Assembly (NCBI GenBank): GCA_017535865.1
Contig: JAFXTM010000001.1
Location: 99,312-163,311 of the forward strand
Origin: Oscillospiraceae bacterium
GTDB lineage: Bacteria > Bacillota > Clostridia > Oscillospirales > Oscillospiraceae
Reading direction: 5' to 3'
Length of the DNA stretch: 64,000 bases
Positions 16,870 through 47,574 of the stretch are shown piece after piece; the stretch's first letter is position 1, and every line of letters starts with the position of its first letter. The position numbers and the translations under genes were made by a program. The notes under the pieces are model-generated. The model saw only the letters and a program-made list of their open reading frames with translations, was not told the DNA's origin and searched no databases.

Positions 16870-18759
16870 TTGGAAAAAATACTTGCCTGCCTGTCTCCCT
16901 CTCCATCCAACCCGAAAATCCTGCGCGCTGCGGCAGATATGGCCGGAGACGGCGCCGAACTGGTCGCGCTGTTTGTCGAGACGCCGCAGTTCCCGCGGCT
17001 GGCCAATGCGGATCGGCGGAGGCTGCAGGAGAATATGCAGATCGCGGAACAGCTTGGTGCAGCCATTCAAACCGTCAGCGGAGACGACGTGGCTTTCCAG
17101 CTCGCAGAATACGCAAAGCTGTCCGGCATCCGGAAAATCGTGCTCGGTCAAAGCGATTTCAAGCTGTCCGTCCTGCCCTCTCAGCCCACCCTGCCCGACA
17201 GACTGGCGGAATACCTGCCGGAAGCGGAGATCCATGTGATCCCGGATCGAAAACGGGGCGTCTATCTGCCGCCTCAGCGAACCGCAGTCAGCAAGCGGCG
17301 AATCCTGATGGACGTTATCGTCACGCTGTCCCTGCTGACGGCCGCCACGCTTCTGGGGATGGTTCTTTACGGCTCCAATCTCTCCAATTCCAGCATCATG
17401 ATGGTCTATCTGCTGGCGGTCCTGCTCATCGCGGTGATCACGTCGCACCGGGCGTACAGCATGGCAGCCTCGGTCGCTTCTCTGTTTCTCTTCAATTTTT
17501 TCTTTGTGCAGCCGCGCTATTCTCTGGTCGCCTATGAGCCCGGGTATCCCGTCAGCTTTCTCGTCATGTTTCTGACGGCCATGATTGCCGGCACGCTCGC
17601 AAACCGCCTCAAGCAGACGGCGTCTCAGGCGGCGCGGACGGCGTTCCGGACCCGGATCATCTCCGAAACGGATCAGCTTCTGGCCAAGGCGGGCAGCAGG
17701 GACGACATCCTACGCTGCTGCGCGGAGCAGAGCGCGAAGCTCCTCGGACGCGGCGTCGTGCTGTACGAAGTGGTAAAGGGCGATGCGTTCCGTCGATTTG
17801 CCATTCCGGAAGATCTCGCCCGGGAGGAAAACCGGACGCTGCCGCTGACGGAAAAGCTTTCGCGCGGACAGGAAGAAAACTGGTGTTACCCGATCCATCT
17901 CCAGGAAAAGCTCTATGCCGTCCTGCAGGTCGCGGATCATGACCCGCCTCCCGAACTCCCCACGCAGAACACGCTGACGTCGGTGCTGGGAGAATGCGCG
18001 CTCGCCCTGGAGAATGAGCAAAACGCCCGGGAAAAGGAGGCGGCCGCTGTTCTGGCCGAGAACGAACGTCTCCGCGCGAATCTGCTGCGCAGCATCTCTC
18101 ATGATCTCCGCACCCCGCTGATGTCCATCGCCGGAAACGCGGGGGCGCTGCTGACCGACGAGAGCCGATATTCGGAAGAAACACGTCATCGGCTTTATTC
18201 GGACATCTATCAGGATTCTCTCTGGCTGATGGATCTGGTGGAAAACCTGCTGGCCAGCACGAGGCTGGAGGGCGGGGCCGACAATCTGCGGCTCTCGACC
18301 GAGCTGCTGGAAGACATCTTTGAGGAGGCCGCCGCCCATGTACATGCGGACAGCGGACACCGTGTGGTCACCGAGACGCCTCCGGACATGCTGATGGTCC
18401 GCGCGGATCCCCGTCTGATCGTTCAGGTCCTTGTCAATCTCATCGGAAACGCCTTGAAGTATACCCCTCCCGGCTCAACGATCCTGATTTCGGCAAAACG
18501 GACGGGAGATACGGCGACCGTATCCGTCGCGGACGACGGCCCCGGCATTTCGTCTGAGGAAAAGGAACATGTCTTTGATATGTTCTTCGTCGGCGGGAAC
18601 GCGGCTTCCGACGGCAGGAGGAGCCTCGGCCTCGGCCTGGCGCTCTGCAAGACGATCGTCAACACCCACGGCGGCGAGATTTGGGTAGAGGACAACAGCC
18701 CGCATGGCTCGGTCTTCTCCTTTACCCTTCCGGTCGAGGAGGTTTCGGAAAATGGATAA
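16870..18759 (+). CDS. kdpD: KdpD-like sensor histidine kinase lacking the KdpD ATPase domain
   Basis: Membrane sensor kinase of 629 aa. Order: UspA-like domain (about 1-125), four closely spaced membrane helices of the DUF4118 type (about 145-245), a GAF-like region (about 265-385), HisKA with phospho-acceptor in LLRSISHDLRTPLMSIAGNAG (about 405), and HATPase (VNLIGNALKYTPPGS, VADDGPGI, LGLGLALCKTIV). Full KdpD (about 890 aa) begins with a Walker-containing KdpD domain that is absent here. TTG start with AAGGAGG 9 nt upstream. It overlaps the response regulator gene by 8 bp. No kdpFABC pump is visible; the genes downstream are Kup and KimA. Confidence 0.9.
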   Translation: MEKILACLSPSPSNPKILRAAADMAGDGAELVALFVETPQFPRLANADRRRLQENMQIAEQLGAAIQTVSGDDVAFQLAEYAKLSGIRKIVLGQSDFKLSVLPSQPTLPDRLAEYLPEAEIHVIPDRKRGVYLPPQRTAVSKRRILMDVIVTLSLLTAATLLGMVLYGSNLSNSSIMMVYLLAVLLIAVITSHRAYSMAASVASLFLFNFFFVQPRYSLVAYEPGYPVSFLVMFLTAMIAGTLANRLKQTASQAARTAFRTRIISETDQLLAKAGSRDDILRCCAEQSAKLLGRGVVLYEVVKGDAFRRFAIPEDLAREENRTLPLTEKLSRGQEENWCYPIHLQEKLYAVLQVADHDPPPELPTQNTLTSVLGECALALENEQNAREKEAAAVLAENERLRANLLRSISHDLRTPLMSIAGNAGALLTDESRYSEETRHRLYSDIYQDSLWLMDLVENLLASTRLEGGADNLRLSTELLEDIFEEAAAHVHADSGHRVVTETPPDMLMVRADPRLIVQVLVNLIGNALKYTPPGSTILISAKRTGDTATVSVADDGPGISSEEKEHVFDMFFVGGNAASDGRRSLGLGLALCKTIVNTHGGEIWVEDNSPHGSVFSFTLPVEEVSENG

Positions 18760-40872: not shown

Positions 40873-42462
40873 CTATATCGTTCCGGTCAGCGCCGCGCCG
40901 TTGACATACAGGGTGTAGCCGTTGGAGATCACGTTTTCTGCGCTGCCGTTGAACTCGGTAATATAGCTGTCGCCGGTCAGCGTCCAGGTGCTGGTGCTGT
41001 CCAGCGTGACGGAAACGGCGCCAACCTCAGCGGAGACCGTTTCGCCCTTGGCGTTGACGATGCTGCCGTCGATGCTGCCCTCAAAGCTCGAGCCGTCCGT
41101 CAGCTCCAGCGTGAGGCTCGAATCGCTGCCGACCTTGACCGCGCCGACGAGCTTCTGGGCAACGGCTTTAAGTTCTGCGATGTTGCTGCCGCCGCTCCAG
41201 CCGTCCGCGCAGACGGAGAGCAGAATGTTGTCCACATCCTCGTTGACGATCTCCACGCCCTCCAGCGTGATGACCGCGTTGGTATTGGTCACATGAAAAA
41301 CGTGGCCGCTCTTGCTGGTGAGGCTGCCGCCCGTCATGGTGAAGTGGCTGGTGCCGCTGGCCGCGTCGCCGGACATGGACTGGTAGATCATGATCGTATC
41401 CAGGAAGGTGGCGTTGCTGTTGCGCCGGGTGTTGTTGGCAGTCAGGTCGCAGTCATTCAGTGTGATCGAATTAAGGCCCTCGATGCACACGCCTTCGGAG
41501 AGATTGGAGATCAGCGTGGCGTTGGACACCGTGATGTCGGCCGTGGAGTAGATGGCCGGAGAACCGAGGCCGTTGGTGGTGTAGCTGCCTCCGTCCACCA
41601 TGACGGTGCCGCCGCCGCGGTCGGTGCGGATGGCCGCGCTGGAACGGCCGGAGGTAGTCACGTCCAGGTCATAAGCATACGTCACGCCGCCGCCCGTGGT
41701 CATGATGCCGCCCGAGCCGTCGCCTGTGGTGACGATGGTGGTGCCGCGGATGATAAGCGTCGTGCCGTCGCCGTCAGCACCGTTCCGCCCGCCGTTGCCG
41801 CCGTAGCAGAAGACGCCGTTTGCGCCGTCTGCATCGGAAGTGATCGTGCCGCCCTCGATGGCGGCGGTCGCGCCGTCCTTGACGAGCACAGCCGCGTTCA
41901 GACCGTAGAAGTTGCAGCTGTCGCCGCCGTCGGAATCGCCGGACTTGGTGACCATGGGATCGGTGATCGTGACTTCATCGGAGGCGCTGATCAGAAGCGC
42001 GCTCTCGTCGGCCGCGGTACTGGTATAGGTCTGGCCTGTCTGCGTATCGCCGGAAGTGATTTCAACTGTGCCTGCATAGTCGATATCTGCGCTGCCTCTA
42101 CCCGGACCGCCGCCGGGCATTCCGCCGCCAAAGCCTCCGGGAGGCGTGCCGCCGGGCCCACCGTTCATTCCCTCAGGAAGACCTCCGGGAGGGGTACCGC
42201 CGGGGCCGCCGTTTCCGTCCGGTTTTTCGGGCGGCGTACCGCCGGGGCCGTCCTCGGGAGGATCGCCGGGAGGCGTCCCTTCGGGCGGTTCACCCGGCAT
42301 TTCTCCGGACGGAGCTCCATGGATTTCCTCAGCAGAAAGCGCTTCCGTCTGCGCATCTATTGCCGGGTTCTCCGAATCCGCAGCGGCTGAAGCGCTTCCG
42401 CAGGCTGTTAAGGTCATGAGCAGAAGGGCCGCTGACAATACGATCGCAAAATACTTTTTCAT
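40873..42462 (-). CDS. Surface lipoprotein with Pro/Gly linker and beta-helix domain
   Basis: 529-aa exported protein. The start MKKYFAIVLSAALLLMTLTAC is fixed by AAAGGAGG upstream; the signal peptide ends in lipobox LTAC. Residues about 35-125 are a low-complexity linker of PGG/GGTPPG units. The remainder (about 130-500) is Ser/Thr/Gly/Asn-rich with regular short strands (VTITDPMVTKSG, TLIIRGTTIVTTGDG, TVMVDGGSYTTNG, ITVSNATLI, ITLNDCDLTANN), typical of a right-handed parallel beta-helix as in pectin-lyase-like and carbohydrate-binding (DUF4353-type) proteins. It probably binds or attacks a polysaccharide or acts as an adhesin. Confidence 0.8.
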   Translation of the reverse strand: MKKYFAIVLSAALLLMTLTACGSASAAADSENPAIDAQTEALSAEEIHGAPSGEMPGEPPEGTPPGDPPEDGPGGTPPEKPDGNGGPGGTPPGGLPEGMNGGPGGTPPGGFGGGMPGGGPGRGSADIDYAGTVEITSGDTQTGQTYTSTAADESALLISASDEVTITDPMVTKSGDSDGGDSCNFYGLNAAVLVKDGATAAIEGGTITSDADGANGVFCYGGNGGRNGADGDGTTLIIRGTTIVTTGDGSGGIMTTGGGVTYAYDLDVTTSGRSSAAIRTDRGGGTVMVDGGSYTTNGLGSPAIYSTADITVSNATLISNLSEGVCIEGLNSITLNDCDLTANNTRRNSNATFLDTIMIYQSMSGDAASGTSHFTMTGGSLTSKSGHVFHVTNTNAVITLEGVEIVNEDVDNILLSVCADGWSGGSNIAELKAVAQKLVGAVKVGSDSSLTLELTDGSSFEGSIDGSIVNAKGETVSAEVGAVSVTLDSTSTWTLTGDSYITEFNGSAENVISNGYTLYVNGAALTGTI

Positions 42463-42764
42463 GTTTTTTCCTCCTTTGCTTTGTCTGGAGCGAATATACC
42501 ATGCGAACCTTAAAGGAAACTTAGTCGCGGGGGATACGAATCGCTTCCGCCTGTGGGCGTCCCTTTTTCGGCTCTTTTTGTCCCGCCTCACTTGCCGGGC
42601 GTCAGCCCGGCGGCGCTCGCCGGGCTCTTGATTCGCTCAAAAACTGCCGGCTCACAGGTGCTTCACAGTCCTCGCAGAGCGGATCTGGGCCGGGACAAGA
42701 CGCAGCAGGCAGAGAATACTTCCGATCTTTCAATGACTGCAGCGCCGTATCAGCCCAAGTCTGC

Positions 42765-42808
42765 CCGCGTAACCCGGCATGGGTTCGAATCCACCACGTC
42801 CAGCCACT
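42765..42808 (+). other. Possible tRNA 3' fragment
   Basis: GGGTTCGAATCC followed by ACCACGTCCAGCCA looks like the T-arm and 3' end of a tRNA, immediately before the hairpin of the first array module. No 5' half with matching acceptor is found upstream and the T-stem pairs poorly. It may be a degraded tRNA or an attachment-site relic. 42463-42764 shows no gene. Confidence 0.35.
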
Positions 42809-42809
42809 A

Positions 42810-42881
42810 AAGAAACCTCTTTTGTCTACCAAAGGCAGAAGAGGTTTTCTTGTTGTACAACTAGATCAAGTATTGTATAAT
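42810..42881 (+). repeat. Array module copy 0: hairpin plus promoter
   Basis: Terminator-like hairpin beginning AAGAAACCTCTTTTGTC (42810-42852), then a promoter TTGTAC (42853-42858), 17-nt spacer, TATAAT (42876-42881) that drives the methyltransferase gene. Same order as copies 1 and 2. This copy lacks the pair of 30-bp repeats. Confidence 0.75.
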
Positions 42882-42919
42882 CATCTCAACAAACCGGAAT
42901 TTGTAAGGGGGAGATGCGC

Positions 42920-43675
42920 ATGAATATTACGCAAACCTTTTATAATAATTTGGCAAGTCAATACGATAAGCTCTTTCAGGATTGGCAGGCAACAACGCAT
43001 GAGCAGGCCGTAATCCTGAACAACCTCTTTGCTGAGAGCGGTTTTGACAAAACGGCTCGAATTCTCGACTGTGCCTGCGGGATCGGAACACAGGCGATTG
43101 GACTGGCCACCCTTGGCTATACCATGACTGCTTCGGATATCAGTGATGAGGAGCTCGTTAAGGCGTCCGAGCGTGCTGAGAAAAACGGTGTGACCATTCG
43201 TTTTGAACATGCGGATTTCTGCGCCTTGTCGGATACCTTCTCTGAACAGTTTGATATTGTGATCGCGATGGACAACGCTCTGCCGCATATGCTTTCAAGC
43301 GAAGCTCTGGAATCGGCGGTCAAGAGTATTACAAATCAGATCAAGTTGGGTGGTATCTTTGTCGCCAGTATCCGCGACTATGACAGCCTTCTGGCTGAGA
43401 AACCTCCATATTCACCGCCGTATATCCACAAGACGGACAAAGGACAGCGCGTTTCCTTCCAGACATGGGTTTGGAACGGGAATCACTATCGGCTGACGCA
43501 GTACATTGTCGATGACGAGGAGAAACTTCAAATCAGCAAGTTCGAGTGTGAATACAGAGCTGTACGCAGAGAAGAATTGACAAACCTGCTTAAATCCAAT
43601 GGATGCGGAGAAGTGGCCTGGAAGTTCCCTGAGGAAACAGGGTTTTATCAGCCGATCGTAGTAGCACGGAAGTGA
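42920..43675 (+). CDS. Class I SAM-dependent methyltransferase
   Basis: 251-aa protein with motif I ILDCACGIGTQAIGLATLGY, acidic motif II TASDIS, motif III HADFCALSDTF and IVIAMDNALPHML, followed by GGIFVASIRDYD. It resembles glycine/sarcosine-type small-molecule N-methyltransferases; the substrate is unknown. The ATG at 42920 is preferred, with GGGGGAG 6 nt ahead; an ATG at 42914 touches that site. Codon use is more A/T-rich than neighbouring core genes, suggesting acquisition. First gene of the repeat-bounded array. Confidence 0.88.
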   Translation: MNITQTFYNNLASQYDKLFQDWQATTHEQAVILNNLFAESGFDKTARILDCACGIGTQAIGLATLGYTMTASDISDEELVKASERAEKNGVTIRFEHADFCALSDTFSEQFDIVIAMDNALPHMLSSEALESAVKSITNQIKLGGIFVASIRDYDSLLAEKPPYSPPYIHKTDKGQRVSFQTWVWNGNHYRLTQYIVDDEEKLQISKFECEYRAVRREELTNLLKSNGCGEVAWKFPEETGFYQPIVVARK

Positions 43676-43686
43676 TAACTTCCCGG

Positions 43687-43833
43687 TTGTCGAGCTGTTC
43701 GCCGTGCACCTTTTACGCGGACTTTCTATGGTCTCGTACCTTTTACGCGTACTTAGCCATGAAAGAAACCTCTTTTGTCTGCCAAAAGGACAAAAGAGGT
43801 TTTCTTGCCGTTTTCAAAACAATATGCTATATT
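43687..43833 (+). repeat. Array module copy 1: 30-bp repeats, hairpin, promoter
   Basis: Begins TTGTCGAG 11 nt after the methyltransferase stop. Two 30-bp repeats follow with ACCTTTTACGCG at 43708 and 43738, then the hairpin AAGAAACCTCTTTTGTC / GACAAAAGAGGTTTTCTT (43763-43806). Last is promoter TTGCCG (43805-43810), 17-nt spacer, TATATT (43828-43833). The hairpin ends the upstream gene and the promoter starts the next. Confidence 0.8.
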
Positions 43834-43869
43834 CAGCATAACCCATCTTGATCTTTGGAGGGGGACCGG

Positions 43870-45102
43870 ATGACAGTGCTGACAAAAACACAGGCACGAA
43901 TGTTTATTCTGGCTAAACAGGGATTGCTTGGCAATTATCGTTTTTCCGGCAAAGATGGCGCTTTTGCCTATGTGCGGCAAGCAGGGTGCATTCAGTACGA
44001 CCCGGTGGACGTTTGTGGAAAGAATGCGGAACTCACACTCCAATCGAGGGTAAAAGGATTTCGAAAGTCCATGTTGGCTGAGCTTTTGTACAAGGACCGG
44101 CTGCTGGTGGACTATGCAGACAAGGAACTTTCTATCTGGCCTGCAGAGGACTGGCCGTATTTTTTCCCTTATCGGGAACGCAGCCGGAAACTCGGCGCCG
44201 GTTTTCCCGGTCTTGCGGAGTTGGAACAGAAAGCGTTGGCTTATATTCGAGCAAACGGCCCGGTTTCCAGCGATACGCTCCCGATCGGCGGTGAGATTTT
44301 CTGGCATTCCTCGATGCATTGGAGCGGGCATTGGCATAAGGATTCCAAGGCTGCCCGGTCAGTCCTGGAACAGCTGTATACCGACGGAACACTCGTAATC
44401 CACCACAAAAACGGCTCCCGGAAGTTTTATGATCTGGCCGAGCGCTATTTGGAGGCATCGTTGCTGACAGCGGATTTTCCCTGCGCGGATAACGAGGATC
44501 TGCTGTGCTGGCGCGTTCTTCGGCGGATCGGAGCGGTCGGACTGCTCTGGGACAAGAATTCGCCCGCCTTTCTGGGTATCGAATTAAAAGCAGACCAGCG
44601 TAAGTCTGTATTATCCACTCTGGAAGCCCGCGGCGCGATACTGTCCGCACGGGTCGAGGGGATCAAACCGGTGTTTTATTATCGCGCAGAGGACGAACCG
44701 CTGATGCGAGCGGTCCTTGCGGGAACGACAGATAATAAAGCGCGTATGGAGTTCCTGGCACCTCTTGACCCGCTGCTTTGGGATAAAACGATGCTTGCCG
44801 CGCTCTGGGATTTCCGCTATTCATGGGAGATCTACACGCCTGCCAGCAAGCGGAAATATGGCTATTATACTCTGCCTGTCCTTTGGGGCAGCGACTTCAT
44901 CGGGCGGATCGAGGCGGTGGCCGATCAGAAAGAGGACACGCTCCGCGTTAAAAACATATGGCTCGAGCCCGGCGTCCGGCAGACCAGAAAGCTGCAACTC
45001 GTATTTGACCGGACACTCCGCCGCTTTGCGAGTTTTAACGATTGTACGAGGGTGGCGCTTTGCGGGGAAAGTGCCGGCATCAGCGTGGATGCTGCACGAT
45101 AG
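43870..45102 (+). CDS. AlkX/YcaQ-like winged-helix DNA glycosylase
   Basis: 410-aa protein of the HTH_42 (formerly DUF1006) family, whose members excise bulky alkyl lesions and unhook interstrand crosslinks. The family's catalytic Q-aromatic-D motif is visible as QYDPVDV (about residue 35), the QxD form found in AlkX/YcaQ rather than the QxQ of AlkZ. Other family segments are LWDKTMLAALWDFRYSWEIYTPASKRKYGYYTLPVLWG and the C-terminal LRRFASFNDC. ATG at 43870 with GGAGGGGG 6 nt ahead. Second gene of the array, between module copies 1 and 2. Confidence 0.88.
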   Translation: MTVLTKTQARMFILAKQGLLGNYRFSGKDGAFAYVRQAGCIQYDPVDVCGKNAELTLQSRVKGFRKSMLAELLYKDRLLVDYADKELSIWPAEDWPYFFPYRERSRKLGAGFPGLAELEQKALAYIRANGPVSSDTLPIGGEIFWHSSMHWSGHWHKDSKAARSVLEQLYTDGTLVIHHKNGSRKFYDLAERYLEASLLTADFPCADNEDLLCWRVLRRIGAVGLLWDKNSPAFLGIELKADQRKSVLSTLEARGAILSARVEGIKPVFYYRAEDEPLMRAVLAGTTDNKARMEFLAPLDPLLWDKTMLAALWDFRYSWEIYTPASKRKYGYYTLPVLWGSDFIGRIEAVADQKEDTLRVKNIWLEPGVRQTRKLQLVFDRTLRRFASFNDCTRVALCGESAGISVDAAR

Positions 45103-45167
45103 CAGACCGTTTCCCCGTCATGCACGCGGAAAGGAAAGAGCTTATTTGCACGCTTTTCCATGGTTTT

Positions 45168-45296
45168 GTACTTTTTGGGCGGATTTCTCTCAGCTTCGTA
45201 CCTTTCACGCGGACTTTCACATCAAAGGAACCTCTTTTGTCTGCCATTGGACAAAAAGGGGGGCTTGTTGTCTAGTTGGGTCAAATACAGTATCAT
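45168..45296 (+). repeat. Array module copy 2: 30-bp repeats, hairpin, promoter
   Basis: GTAC...GGCGGA repeats begin at 45168 and 45198 (30-bp period). The hairpin with CCTCTTTTGTC / GACAAAAAGGGG follows at 45223-45266. The promoter is TTGTCT (45268-45273), 17-nt spacer, TATCAT (45291-45296). The sequence CTTGTTGT...TCATCTCAACA is near identical to copy 0, showing common ancestry of the promoter segments. Confidence 0.78.
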
Positions 45297-45373
45297 CATC
45301 TCAACAGGTATTTGGAGAGATGACAGCATGAGTTTCCGGAATACTGCAGAAAGCAGAGGTGGGGAGGATCAAT

Positions 45374-45847
45374 ATGCTTAACTACAATATTGTTGATTTA
45401 CCAAAAATTGCAATTATTGGAAAGGAAGGCTTATGCACGAAAGAAAAGAATATCGTTCAGGATCTGTGGCAGCAAGCCAATTCCAATTTCAGTGATATTG
45501 CAGATATCGGAATGAAAAACTCAGACGGTTCTTTTGTCGGTTTTTGGGGAGCCATGAGCGATGAAACGATGTCTTTTATGCCGTGGACGGACGGTTTCTC
45601 CAGGGGATTGTATTTGGCAGGCGTTGAAGTATATGAGGATACGGCAGTTCCGGATGGATGGGTAAAGTGGGTTATGCCAGCCAGAAAGTATCTTGTGACC
45701 GAGGTTCATCCGGAAAACTATGGCGAGATATTTGAATACGTGATCAAGAATCTTATTCCGGACCTCGGGTTGAAACTTGCAGGTGCGGTATGTGATTTTA
45801 CTGAACCGGTAACCGGACAGAACAAATTGTTTTTTCCAGTGGAGTGA
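45374..45847 (+). CDS. GyrI-like small-molecule-binding protein
   Basis: 157-aa stand-alone GyrI-like/SHS2 domain (MLNYNIVDLPKIAIIGKEGLC ... GFWGAMSDETMSF ... YLAGVEVYE ... WVKWVMPARKYLVTEV). The domain binds cationic or hydrophobic ligands in BmrR-type regulators; stand-alone members protect gyrase or hydrolyse cyclopropanoid genotoxins in described cases. No DNA-binding domain. GGGGAGG precedes the ATG at 45374. Third gene of the array. Confidence 0.82.
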   Translation: MLNYNIVDLPKIAIIGKEGLCTKEKNIVQDLWQQANSNFSDIADIGMKNSDGSFVGFWGAMSDETMSFMPWTDGFSRGLYLAGVEVYEDTAVPDGWVKWVMPARKYLVTEVHPENYGEIFEYVIKNLIPDLGLKLAGAVCDFTEPVTGQNKLFFPVE

Positions 45848-45864
45848 GAGAATCAAATTCCGAT

Positions 45865-45974
45865 TTGTCGAGATGCTTGACATGAACCTTTCAGGCGGAT
45901 TCTCTGTCGTTTTGTACCTTTTGCGCGGATTTTCATCAAGGAAAGCTCTTTTGTCTACCGGAAGGTGAAAGAAA
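45865..45974 (+). repeat. Array module copy 3 (terminal, decayed)
   Basis: TTGTCGAG 18 nt after the GyrI-like gene, then ACCTTTC-GGCGGA and ACCTTTT-GCGCGGA 30 bp apart (45886, 45916). A degraded CTCTTTTGTCTACC half-hairpin follows, with no good promoter. The rest of 45975-46230 shows no gene. Confidence 0.7.
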
Positions 45975-46230
45975 CCGCGGAGCGCTTCGGAATCAGGGAA
46001 TAACGGTCTTCCTGGTTTCCGGCCCTTTGACCGGATCGTGTCGCCCCGACAAAGGGGAGGGTCATGCTGTGGGATCCTTGTCTGACGTAAGCTTCGTCGA
46101 GCTGACGCTGGCGGTCCTGCGGGGGCGAGCAGCCTGTGAGAAAAGGTCATCACGAAGCGGCGGGCAAAGCGGATCATCCTGTGCTTCGGTCCTTTTCGTG
46201 GCCTTGCACGAGAAAGATTTTTTTCTGTTT

Positions 46231-47574
46231 TCAAACCTCCAGCGCAGTGCGCAGGAGAATATCTTCCCCGATCTCATCCGGCGTCCACCGGATATAATGA
46301 TCGACCGGCAGGCCCTTTCCGCCCACGCCGCGGCCTTCATAGGCTGCGGCGGTCATCGCGATCGGGTAAGAGAGTGTCATGTGCTCGTTGAGCTTCACCG
46401 TGATGGGGTCGAAGGTGTCCAGTGTCCCCATCGTGGGGCGGCCGACTGTCACGACCTTCTTTCCGCAGCGCTGCGCCATGGCGGCGAACTGCTCGCCCTC
46501 GTCCTCGCAGAAGGTGTCCATGATCAGCACGACCTTCTCCGGCGCGCTCTCCGCCGGGCAGATCGGCACGTCCTTAAACGGCTCGGCGGGCTTGAAGCAC
46601 AGCCCCTTGCCGTAGTTGTCGAGATAAAAGCGACGCTCCTGCGCGACAAGGGCGATCTGCTCCGGATCGGAGAGCGTCTTCTCGCAGTCGGACAGGATGC
46701 GATAGCGCAGCTCGCAGTTGCTTTTCGTGCAGTTGATGTAGCTCCCTTCGTCCGAGAGCAGCGTGTTCATATCGGTCTCGTGATCGACCAGATACGGGAA
46801 AAGATCCCAGCAGGCATCCTCGTCGCCGCCGACGCAGCGGCGCAGATCGAGGATCAGCTTCCGGCATGTGGCGATTTCCGCCTCATGCTCGGCCAGGAGT
46901 CTGTCCATGACAGTACGATCCATGCGCTCAAGCTTCATGTATGTTGTATCAGCCGAAAGCTTGCGAAATTCGATCGGGTATTCCACCTCTTCCGCCGGAA
47001 ACGAAGGCAGCTTCACGATCTCGACACTGCCGTCCGCGTGCTCGACCTCGACGGAAGCAGCCATGCGGAGATAGCCGCCCCAGAGCTCCCGCTCCGGTTC
47101 GGCGCTGTAGAAGCCGGTGCCGCGCAGCAGGCGCCGGATCTTCTCAGGGCTCATGCTCTGGACAGAGAGGATCTTATCACCCAAAACGAGTCCTGTCTCC
47201 GGAGCCGCCTCCGTGACCCAGAGGCAGTCCCGCTGCGCACGCACACGATATTTCATCGCGGCGTTGCGATAGTCGATCCAGTCGTCGCAGTGGAAACGCA
47301 GGTGACGATCCTGCATGTCCGCCGTGAACTGATGAAGCGAGCGGGCAAGCATCTGGAACGTAAGCGTGTTATAGCGGTAATGAGAGAGGATATAGGTTCG
47401 GTACTCGTTGGGCATGAAGCGGCGCTCCCGTCCGGGAAAGCCGACATAGTTGTCGTGTATGCTCTCGACCATGACCTGAAAGATCTCATCCAGGTCGATC
47501 GGATCCTCCTGAAGTGGGGCATAGAGATTGCGGCGTGCGCTGCGTTTCTGTTCCTCGCGTTCCTTGATTCCCAT
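46231..47574 (-). CDS. S41-family peptidase-like protein, nucleophile missing
   Basis: 447-aa cytoplasmic protein (no signal peptide) with a PDZ-like middle (about 140-185, LVLGDKILSVQSMSPEKI) and a C-terminal tail-specific-protease fold: LILDLRRCVGGDEDA, VVLIMDTFCEDEGEQFAAMAQRCGKKVVTVGRPTMG. In active S41 enzymes the segment after the strand reads xxSAAE; here the serine position is Asp in CEDEGEQ, so it is probably not a normal protease. The start MGIKEREEQK at 47574 is set by AGGAGA upstream. Role unknown. Confidence 0.75.
   Translation of the reverse strand: MGIKEREEQKRSARRNLYAPLQEDPIDLDEIFQVMVESIHDNYVGFPGRERRFMPNEYRTYILSHYRYNTLTFQMLARSLHQFTADMQDRHLRFHCDDWIDYRNAAMKYRVRAQRDCLWVTEAAPETGLVLGDKILSVQSMSPEKIRRLLRGTGFYSAEPERELWGGYLRMAASVEVEHADGSVEIVKLPSFPAEEVEYPIEFRKLSADTTYMKLERMDRTVMDRLLAEHEAEIATCRKLILDLRRCVGGDEDACWDLFPYLVDHETDMNTLLSDEGSYINCTKSNCELRYRILSDCEKTLSDPEQIALVAQERRFYLDNYGKGLCFKPAEPFKDVPICPAESAPEKVVLIMDTFCEDEGEQFAAMAQRCGKKVVTVGRPTMGTLDTFDPITVKLNEHMTLSYPIAMTAAAYEGRGVGGKGLPVDHYIRWTPDEIGEDILLRTALEV

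Follow-up and report, generated by a model that had tools for sequence, protein, structure and literature searches.

An array of gene cassettes behind a tRNA 3′ end

The stretch of DNA analyzed here, 64,000 nucleotides from an Oscillospiraceae bacterium (contig JAFXTM010000001.1, positions 99,312 to 163,311; hereafter the window), carries an array of three genes on the + strand, separated by a recurrent module and bounded by the 3′ fragment of a tRNA gene and by an S41-peptidase gene. An initial annotation, made from the sequence alone, had read this array as a gene-cassette-like capture system, a reading that our comparison with other genomes supports. These genomes are all metagenome-assembled genomes (MAGs) and are incomplete. 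The features of the array are the following (all coordinates are those of the window).

42781–42806, + strand: remnant of a tRNA gene, 3′ part up to the CCA (GGGTTCGAATCC; acceptor strand, GCCA), where the array is attached; from sequence
42807–43759, + strand: cassette 1; ends set by end comparison and by the left-end and tRNA rules
42807–42855, + strand: cassette 1 left end, two bases and then a terminator-like hairpin (hairpin folding and covariation)
42854–42881, + strand: cassette 1 promoter-like pair (promoter scan)
42885–42903, + strand: 5′ copy of the inner inverted repeat (CTCAACAAACCGGAATTTG), in the leader ahead of gene 1 (repeat search)
42914–43675, + strand: cassette 1 gene, S-adenosylmethionine-dependent methyltransferase domain protein (PF13649, 1.7e-15)
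43706–43759, + strand: cassette 1 right end, two direct repeats at 30-bp spacing, closing in CA
43760–45221, + strand: cassette 2; 93.5% identity to G025:C143 (L182), alignment 43752–45221
43760–43812, + strand: cassette 2 left end, hairpin (folding)
43805–43833, + strand: cassette 2 promoter-like pair (promoter scan)
43870–45102, + strand: cassette 2 gene, AlkZ-like DNA glycosylase (PF06224, 5.1e-47)
45168–45221, + strand: cassette 2 right end (repeat pair, cross-genome alignment)
45222–45935, + strand: cassette 3 (sequence, repeat pair)
45222–45275, + strand: cassette 3 left end, hairpin partly decayed (folding)
45268–45296, + strand: cassette 3 promoter-like pair (promoter scan)
45374–45847, + strand: cassette 3 gene, Cass2/GyrI-like effector-binding protein (PF14526, 8.7e-9)
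45854–45872, + strand: 3′ copy of the inner inverted repeat (CAAATTCCGATTTGTCGAG), behind gene 3 (repeat search)
45884–45935, + strand: cassette 3 right end, by eye some 2 bp short of the other right ends ahead of CA
45936–45961, + strand: remnant of a left end that keeps just the first half of the hairpin, interpreted as the relic of a fourth cassette

The three genes and the repeats between them are present as first described, and in each of the three copies the 21-bp motif does occur as a pair whose members lie exactly 30 bp apart (43706/43736, 45168/45198, and 45884/45914). The sequence said to be shared by the modules after each gene, TTGTCGAG, is absent from the second one: among the modules, it stands after genes 1 and 3 alone (43687 and 45865), with further occurrences at positions 16973 and 46616. 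Measured against simple base shuffles, folding is strong for the hairpins of copy 0 (−21.9 kcal/mol, z −6.7) and copy 1 (−22.5 kcal/mol, z −5.8) and less so for that of copy 2 (−17.0 kcal/mol, z −2.4). Copy 3 no longer has a hairpin (z 0.2), the second half having been lost and the first half alone being left; a simple terminator scan passes the copy 0 hairpin only. Eight promoter-like sites were counted in the array region, versus 3.2 ± 1.7 in shuffles. Promoter-like pairs stand at the same place in copies 0–2, as annotated, but the uniform 17-bp spacer does not hold for the first of them in the scan, which returns TGTACA and a spacer of 16 bp; reading by eye gives TTGTAC-17-TATAAT. The array is indeed more A/T-rich than its surroundings (GC content of 49% versus 61% for the window). 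As for the tRNA-3′-end-like sequence at its start, it is a fragment ending in CCA, whose geometry equals that of 27 called tRNAs ending exactly at a cassette left end, but ARAGORN calls no complete tRNA there. An Rfam search of positions 42400–46300 gave no match.

The mobile unit and its two ends

A cassette is ordered as follows: a left end, a promoter-like pair, usually one gene, and a right end. The left end consists of two free bases followed by a terminator-like hairpin with a conserved loop (AAAGAAACCTCTTTTGTCTACC..), while the right end is a pair of direct repeats (CTTTTRSGCGNNCTT..) at a distance of 30 or 31 bp, closed by ..CA; by eye, the left and right ends do not resemble each other. 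In an alignment of 48 left ends, the hairpin has 12 pairs, 9 of which show changes on both sides, a result that none of 500 shuffles reaches, and pairing is kept in 96.5% of cells, where shuffled alignments reach 88.9% and slid versions no more than 73.6%. For 51 right ends, RNAalifold returned no conserved pair. Hence, the left end is conserved as a hairpin, and the right end as direct repeats of DNA. Judging from its sequence, the hairpin is most simply a terminator, and the terminator-like and promoter-like elements would terminate and drive transcription. The idea that the left-end motif might be a third right-end unit was discarded, the motif beating shuffles in only 1 of 48 cases. At L224 (7880–7973), the right end has grown to four tandem 31-bp units. 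Besides the two ends, an inner repeat, CTCGACAAATCGGGATTTG, often lies between the promoter-like pair and the ribosome site, with its inverse often located after the gene; this inverted repeat brackets the gene in many, not all, cassettes, and is also found in the window (42885–42903/45854–45872).

The 64 complete cassette spans have a median of 805 bp (0.80 kb) and range from 0.5 to 3.6 kb. Comparison of homologous cassettes (17 pairs listed, 12 of them informative on the ends) delimits the unit sharply. Cassette 2 of the window and its homolog G025:C143 share their 93.5% identity over 1470 bp, and the alignment starts 8 bp ahead of the left end and stops at the CA of the right end; the pairs L167/L171 (93.2%) and L041/L178 (77.5%) have equally sharp ends. 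One cassette (97.6%) is even found behind a tRNA-Gly in L087 and behind a tRNA-Leu in L095, two contigs of one MAG: the left hairpins are alike, while the terminator-like hairpins downstream of the cassette differ. Across 14 right-end pairs, no mismatch is seen at either base of the CA (0/14 each), versus 9/14 and 10/14 at the next two positions, and mismatches are found in 9 of 42 cells at positions −5 to −3, compared with 47 of 770 at −60 to −6. On these sequence comparisons, the unit that moves, and moves as a whole, is terminator–promoter–gene–repeat pair. The unit first proposed, a gene plus the module that follows it, is ruled out, since the comparison of ends gives terminator-first units; the likeness to integron cassettes stands as a functional analogy.

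Insertion behind tRNA genes

The 110 distinct left ends fall into three groups: 27 begin precisely two bases behind a called tRNA, 32 directly follow a right end, and the other 51 are located elsewhere. The 27 tRNAs belong to ten isotypes (Ser 7, Leu 5, Val 4, Pro 3, and Arg 3, with one case each for Gly, Asn, Ala, Glu, and Cys). Among the 51 left ends located elsewhere, 40 still follow a CA, and several of them a tRNA 3′ tail, like in the window. Right ends close in CA in 88 of 92 cases; downstream of them, we found a left end (29), a hairpin with a T-run (45), or a sequence not accepted by our simple test (18).

The empty site was recognized by joining the flanks of the cassette G046:C62. 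These joined flanks, split by about 845 bp in G046, are contiguous over the joint in G018:C23 (query 1–398) and G370:C17 (9–398). The seven loci of this search were read at the joint: in G046, CCA is followed by the left end; in G018, G370, G025, G361, and G043, CCA (that of a tRNA-Leu in G018 and G370) is followed by a hairpin of another sequence; and in G029, a hairpin lies behind a tRNA ending in ACTG. In the native state, therefore, a tRNA is followed by its own terminator, and a cassette inserts between them. Over all loci, two positions are used by cassettes: directly behind the CCA of a tRNA gene, ahead of the terminator of that tRNA, or directly behind the ..CA that closes an earlier cassette. 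The tRNA 3′ end thus serves as the attachment site and is not merely the place where an array happens to start. At L040, a second copy of a tRNA-Gln 3′ end, 133 bp behind the intact gene, bears the cassette; L063 and L232 show a similar, less exact duplication, and L051 has the tail of another tRNA behind a tRNA-Arg.

Several other sequences related to tRNA tails were observed. At L050, L053, L155, L167, L178, L186, L187, L192, and L227, tRNA 3′ tails of about 20 nt (CGAATCC..CCA) abut the left end, with the rest of the tRNA absent and unrelated sequence upstream; these lone tails are perhaps attachment relics of other tRNA-integrating islands. Inverted tRNA-3′-tail-like sequences often lie behind native tRNA terminators (e.g., TGGCACGCTGTAAGGGATTCGAAT at a tRNA-Arg locus), for instance at L049 after 3160, at L040 near 6440, and downstream of the right end at L081, L086, L092, and L052. 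After the right end of L047, L048, L060, and L069 comes a recurrent tail, in which the terminator-like sequence CACGGTAATTTTGATAGAATTGCCGTG is accompanied by a promoter-like box and by the conserved sequence GACGAGGCCGAGGGCCTG..CTGGATGATGACTGG.

Distribution across genomes

The 131-bp module of the window matches 26 of 61 congeneric genomes (E ≤ 0.001), and the repeat pair recurs in other genomes with E-values down to 3.8e-17, which is not chance. A right-end model, built on sequence only from 51 copies, detects right ends in 41 of 102 genomes of the genus (E ≤ 0.01), at up to 10 places per genome. In a sample of 400 genomes of the family, it detects them in 25 genomes, spanning 16 of 106 genera (E ≤ 1e-4). 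A strict right-end pattern was found in 5 of 300 family genomes, versus 1 of 300 for the reversed control. A somewhat longer pattern, run over 84,980 species genomes, gave 39 stretches, 31 of which score at least 40 as right ends, while the remaining 8, from other phyla, do not. The records of these 31 are titled Ruminococcaceae, Oscillospiraceae, Clostridia, or Clostridiales, with single ones titled Saccharofermentans, Mageeibacillus, and Solobacterium, and many of the titles name ruminant gut samples. The right-end pattern had no match in IMG/VR, and cassette 1, the sole query used, had none in plasmid and phage collections.

Neither of the two outcomes that would have refuted the initial reading was thus observed. 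The module is not restricted to the window and its three genes, but surrounds many different genes at many loci of other genomes; nor are these ordinary repeats without gene exchange, given that whole units with sharp ends are found in new contexts.

Search for a recombinase

The integron integrase IntI (TIGR02249) was found above cut-off in none of 14 genomes, incomplete as these MAGs are; sub-threshold matches occur in 13 of the 14, and in control genomes alike. We then compared the families PF00239, PF00589, PF01548, and PF01797 in 10 cassette-rich genomes and in 8 cassette-free ones; the matches were judged on their score and on the length of the frame, not by tree. IS110 is present in 2 of the 10 rich and 3 of the 8 free genomes, and the Y1 transposase in 4 of each group, all of them incomplete MAGs. 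Only high-scoring Xer-like matches recur in 9 of the 10 rich genomes, as housekeeping genes would. No family fitting a recombinase linked to the motif, a link that the initial annotation had invited one to look for, came out of this comparison. One incomplete MAG, G423, has three right ends and no PF00589 match. A dif-like sequence, ACTTATTTTAAYCARAATTATGTAAA, is recurrent in several genomes of the genus and is by eye unlike the cassette junction; a control pattern matched about equally often, so that the dif assignment rests on its recurrence.

Individual candidates were also considered. A Xer-like pair in L195/L196 was set aside, its neighbors marking it as housekeeping. At L238 (5508–6595), a gene for a 301-aa tyrosine integrase has its start some 120 bp from a right end and is oriented away from that end; as the cassette enzyme it was rejected, for it lies by a tRNA-Leu 3′ end that has a terminator of its own, and it resembles the integrase of an island. 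A phmmer search with XerC/XerD over the open reading frames (ORFs) of a first set of the loci found no L238-like gene repeated at other arrays, though distant ones would escape it. L304 and L305 hold small tyrosine recombinases (open frame of 213–215 aa); that of L304 was dismissed because of phage-type genes seen beside it by eye. Inside the cassettes, no integrase was recognized by eye in the listed genes, nor in the 25 of 88 cargo families shown; the span of L155 holds one 73-aa integrase-like fragment.

A model for cassette movement and its alternatives

We propose that these are mobile gene cassettes with defined left and right ends, inserted at the CCA of a tRNA gene or at the ..CA of another cassette by a putative recombinase acting in trans, and we give this explanation a probability of about 0.87. 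A putative site-specific recombinase would join both ends of an excised, probably circular, cassette. Insertion would then occur by a short crossover at CA, directly behind the tRNA CCA or the ..CA of a cassette already in place. The left end that comes in would replace the terminator of the tRNA, and since it takes that place, the tRNA would stay intact and terminated. The cassette gene would be driven by the cassette's own promoter, and its transcription would end at the native terminator pushed downstream or at the left end of the next cassette; repeated insertions would build arrays. We infer the circular form, the direction of growth, and the recombinase with its type. A core limited to CA, the tolerance of mismatches nearby, and direction-specific insertion would suit a Tn916-like tyrosine recombinase or a serine recombinase; we favor, at roughly even odds, a tyrosine recombinase tolerating mismatched overlaps.

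Several observations do not sit easily with this model. No right end was detected in 61 of the 102 congeneric genomes, and the 51 left ends located elsewhere have neither a called tRNA nor a recognized right end ahead of them; of those that do not follow a CA either, some look like antisense matches of the palindromic hairpin. In L009/L083 and L066/L093, the start of the homology is the inner repeat close to the gene instead of the left end, which means that left parts are also exchanged by some other route. None of the serine, tyrosine, IS110, and Y1 families was seen in the cassette-rich yet not in the cassette-free genomes, no circular junction of a cassette was seen, and many contigs stop at arrays, in genomes that are all MAGs.

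Integrons are the textbook natural platform for gene capture and are known mainly from other phyla. Like their cassettes, the units described here are small, tandem, mostly single-gene, and mobile, with a recombination sequence behind the gene and varied adaptive cargo (here GNATs, one aminoglycoside-modifying enzyme, and a Cass2-like protein). One could thus imagine attC-type cassettes moved by IntI, with diverged sites. We regard this as highly improbable: IntI is above cut-off in none of the 14 genomes; the 51 right ends have no conserved fold in RNAalifold (a dedicated attC model was not run); the cassettes bear their own promoter-like and terminator-like sequences; and the platform is not attI but the tRNA CCA, in many isotypes. 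The system works like that of integron cassettes and fails the integron tests that were run (IntI and conserved attC-type fold). An explanation by dispersed, BOX-like intergenic repeats or local duplication without gene exchange would account for modules that are repeated and intergenic, but is hardly credible in view of the empty site and of whole gene units found at new loci with sharp ends.

Non-autonomous derivatives of insertion sequences (IS) carrying passenger genes, whether similar to miniature inverted-repeat transposable elements or of the IS200/IS605, IS607, or IS110 type, would explain the short defined ends and the lack of a recognized movement gene inside, and a shared core of 2 bp would suit IS110 or a serine recombinase. 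We consider them unlikely, though less so than the other alternatives: a constant target-site duplication is lacking (of 18 loci compared at both ends, 4 have the same two bases next to the joint on either side), the IS110 and Y1 genes are no more frequent in cassette-rich than in cassette-free genomes, and the cargos are many and unrelated. Remnants of ordinary tRNA-targeting islands or satellites that have lost their integrase seem very unlikely. Insertion at tRNA 3′ ends, the tRNA 3′-tail fragments ahead of some left ends, the integrase gene near one right end (L238), and the fragment inside L155 speak for them, but by eye no tRNA tail lies at the far end of the cassettes, whose flanks share CA only; moreover, the ends are conserved while the genes differ. 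For Islander-class islands, sizes peak at 13.6 and 39.9 kb, and islands carry an integrase and a displaced tRNA fragment (PMC4383910); chromosomal tRNA 3′ ends serve as attachment sites and the target tRNA stays intact, as here. Compared with these islands, our cassettes are small (median 0.80 kb over 64 spans), have no recognized integrase or far-end tRNA fragment, and use one set of ends for many isotypes, ten in all. The docking place is thus that of tRNA islands; the ends, the size, and the integrase are not.

Two other systems deserve comparison with the proposed cassettes. Recombination of the Tn916 type joins ends without identity over a short overlap, which recalls the mismatches at −5 to −3 of the right end; Tn916 itself is large, autonomous, and not directed to tRNA genes, and no such recombinase is tied to the cassettes. 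Casposons also insert at tRNA 3′ ends, but they encode Cas1 and generate a target duplication of about 14 bp, which is not found in the compared cassette loci.

We know of no described system with these features; our literature search found none in the open-licence part of PubMed Central, and subscription papers and preprints could hold one. It is quite probable, in our opinion, that the cassettes form a second gene-cassette system, independent of integrons, in which a recombinase acting in trans uses the CCA end of practically any tRNA gene, self-contained units stand in tandem, and cassettes are traded among genera of rumen Clostridia. If so, gut Clostridia would possess a parallel way of capturing genes, with a docking site that is a generic part of every genome; tRNA function would be kept thanks to the terminator brought in, and each gene would be expressed on its own. 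The ends would also make it possible to search for an otherwise hidden exchange of small genes among rumen bacteria, one that in one genome includes an APH(3′) aminoglycoside phosphotransferase. The model poses the question of an enzyme recognizing the 3′ ends of tRNA genes of ten isotypes.

Cassette cargo

The cargo is varied. Among 68 cassette ORFs, 15 match GNAT acetyltransferases, and others match, among the 25 of 88 families shown, AlkZ, M29 peptidase, GyrI-like, helix-turn-helix, beta-lactamase-family hydrolase, and TPR models; matches of PADLOC are mostly to generic-looking domains. The APH(3′) phosphotransferase (245.6 bits versus an NCBIfam cut-off of 205) is carried by one cassette of G286, whose right end is weak (score 28.5) and which adjoins an AlkZ cassette 86% identical to cassette 2 of the window. 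At L009 (2382–5278), within a 4.3-kb span between two right ends, lie genes for a 735-aa protein, with a TIR domain by eye, and for a 230-aa partner, possibly a defence pair.

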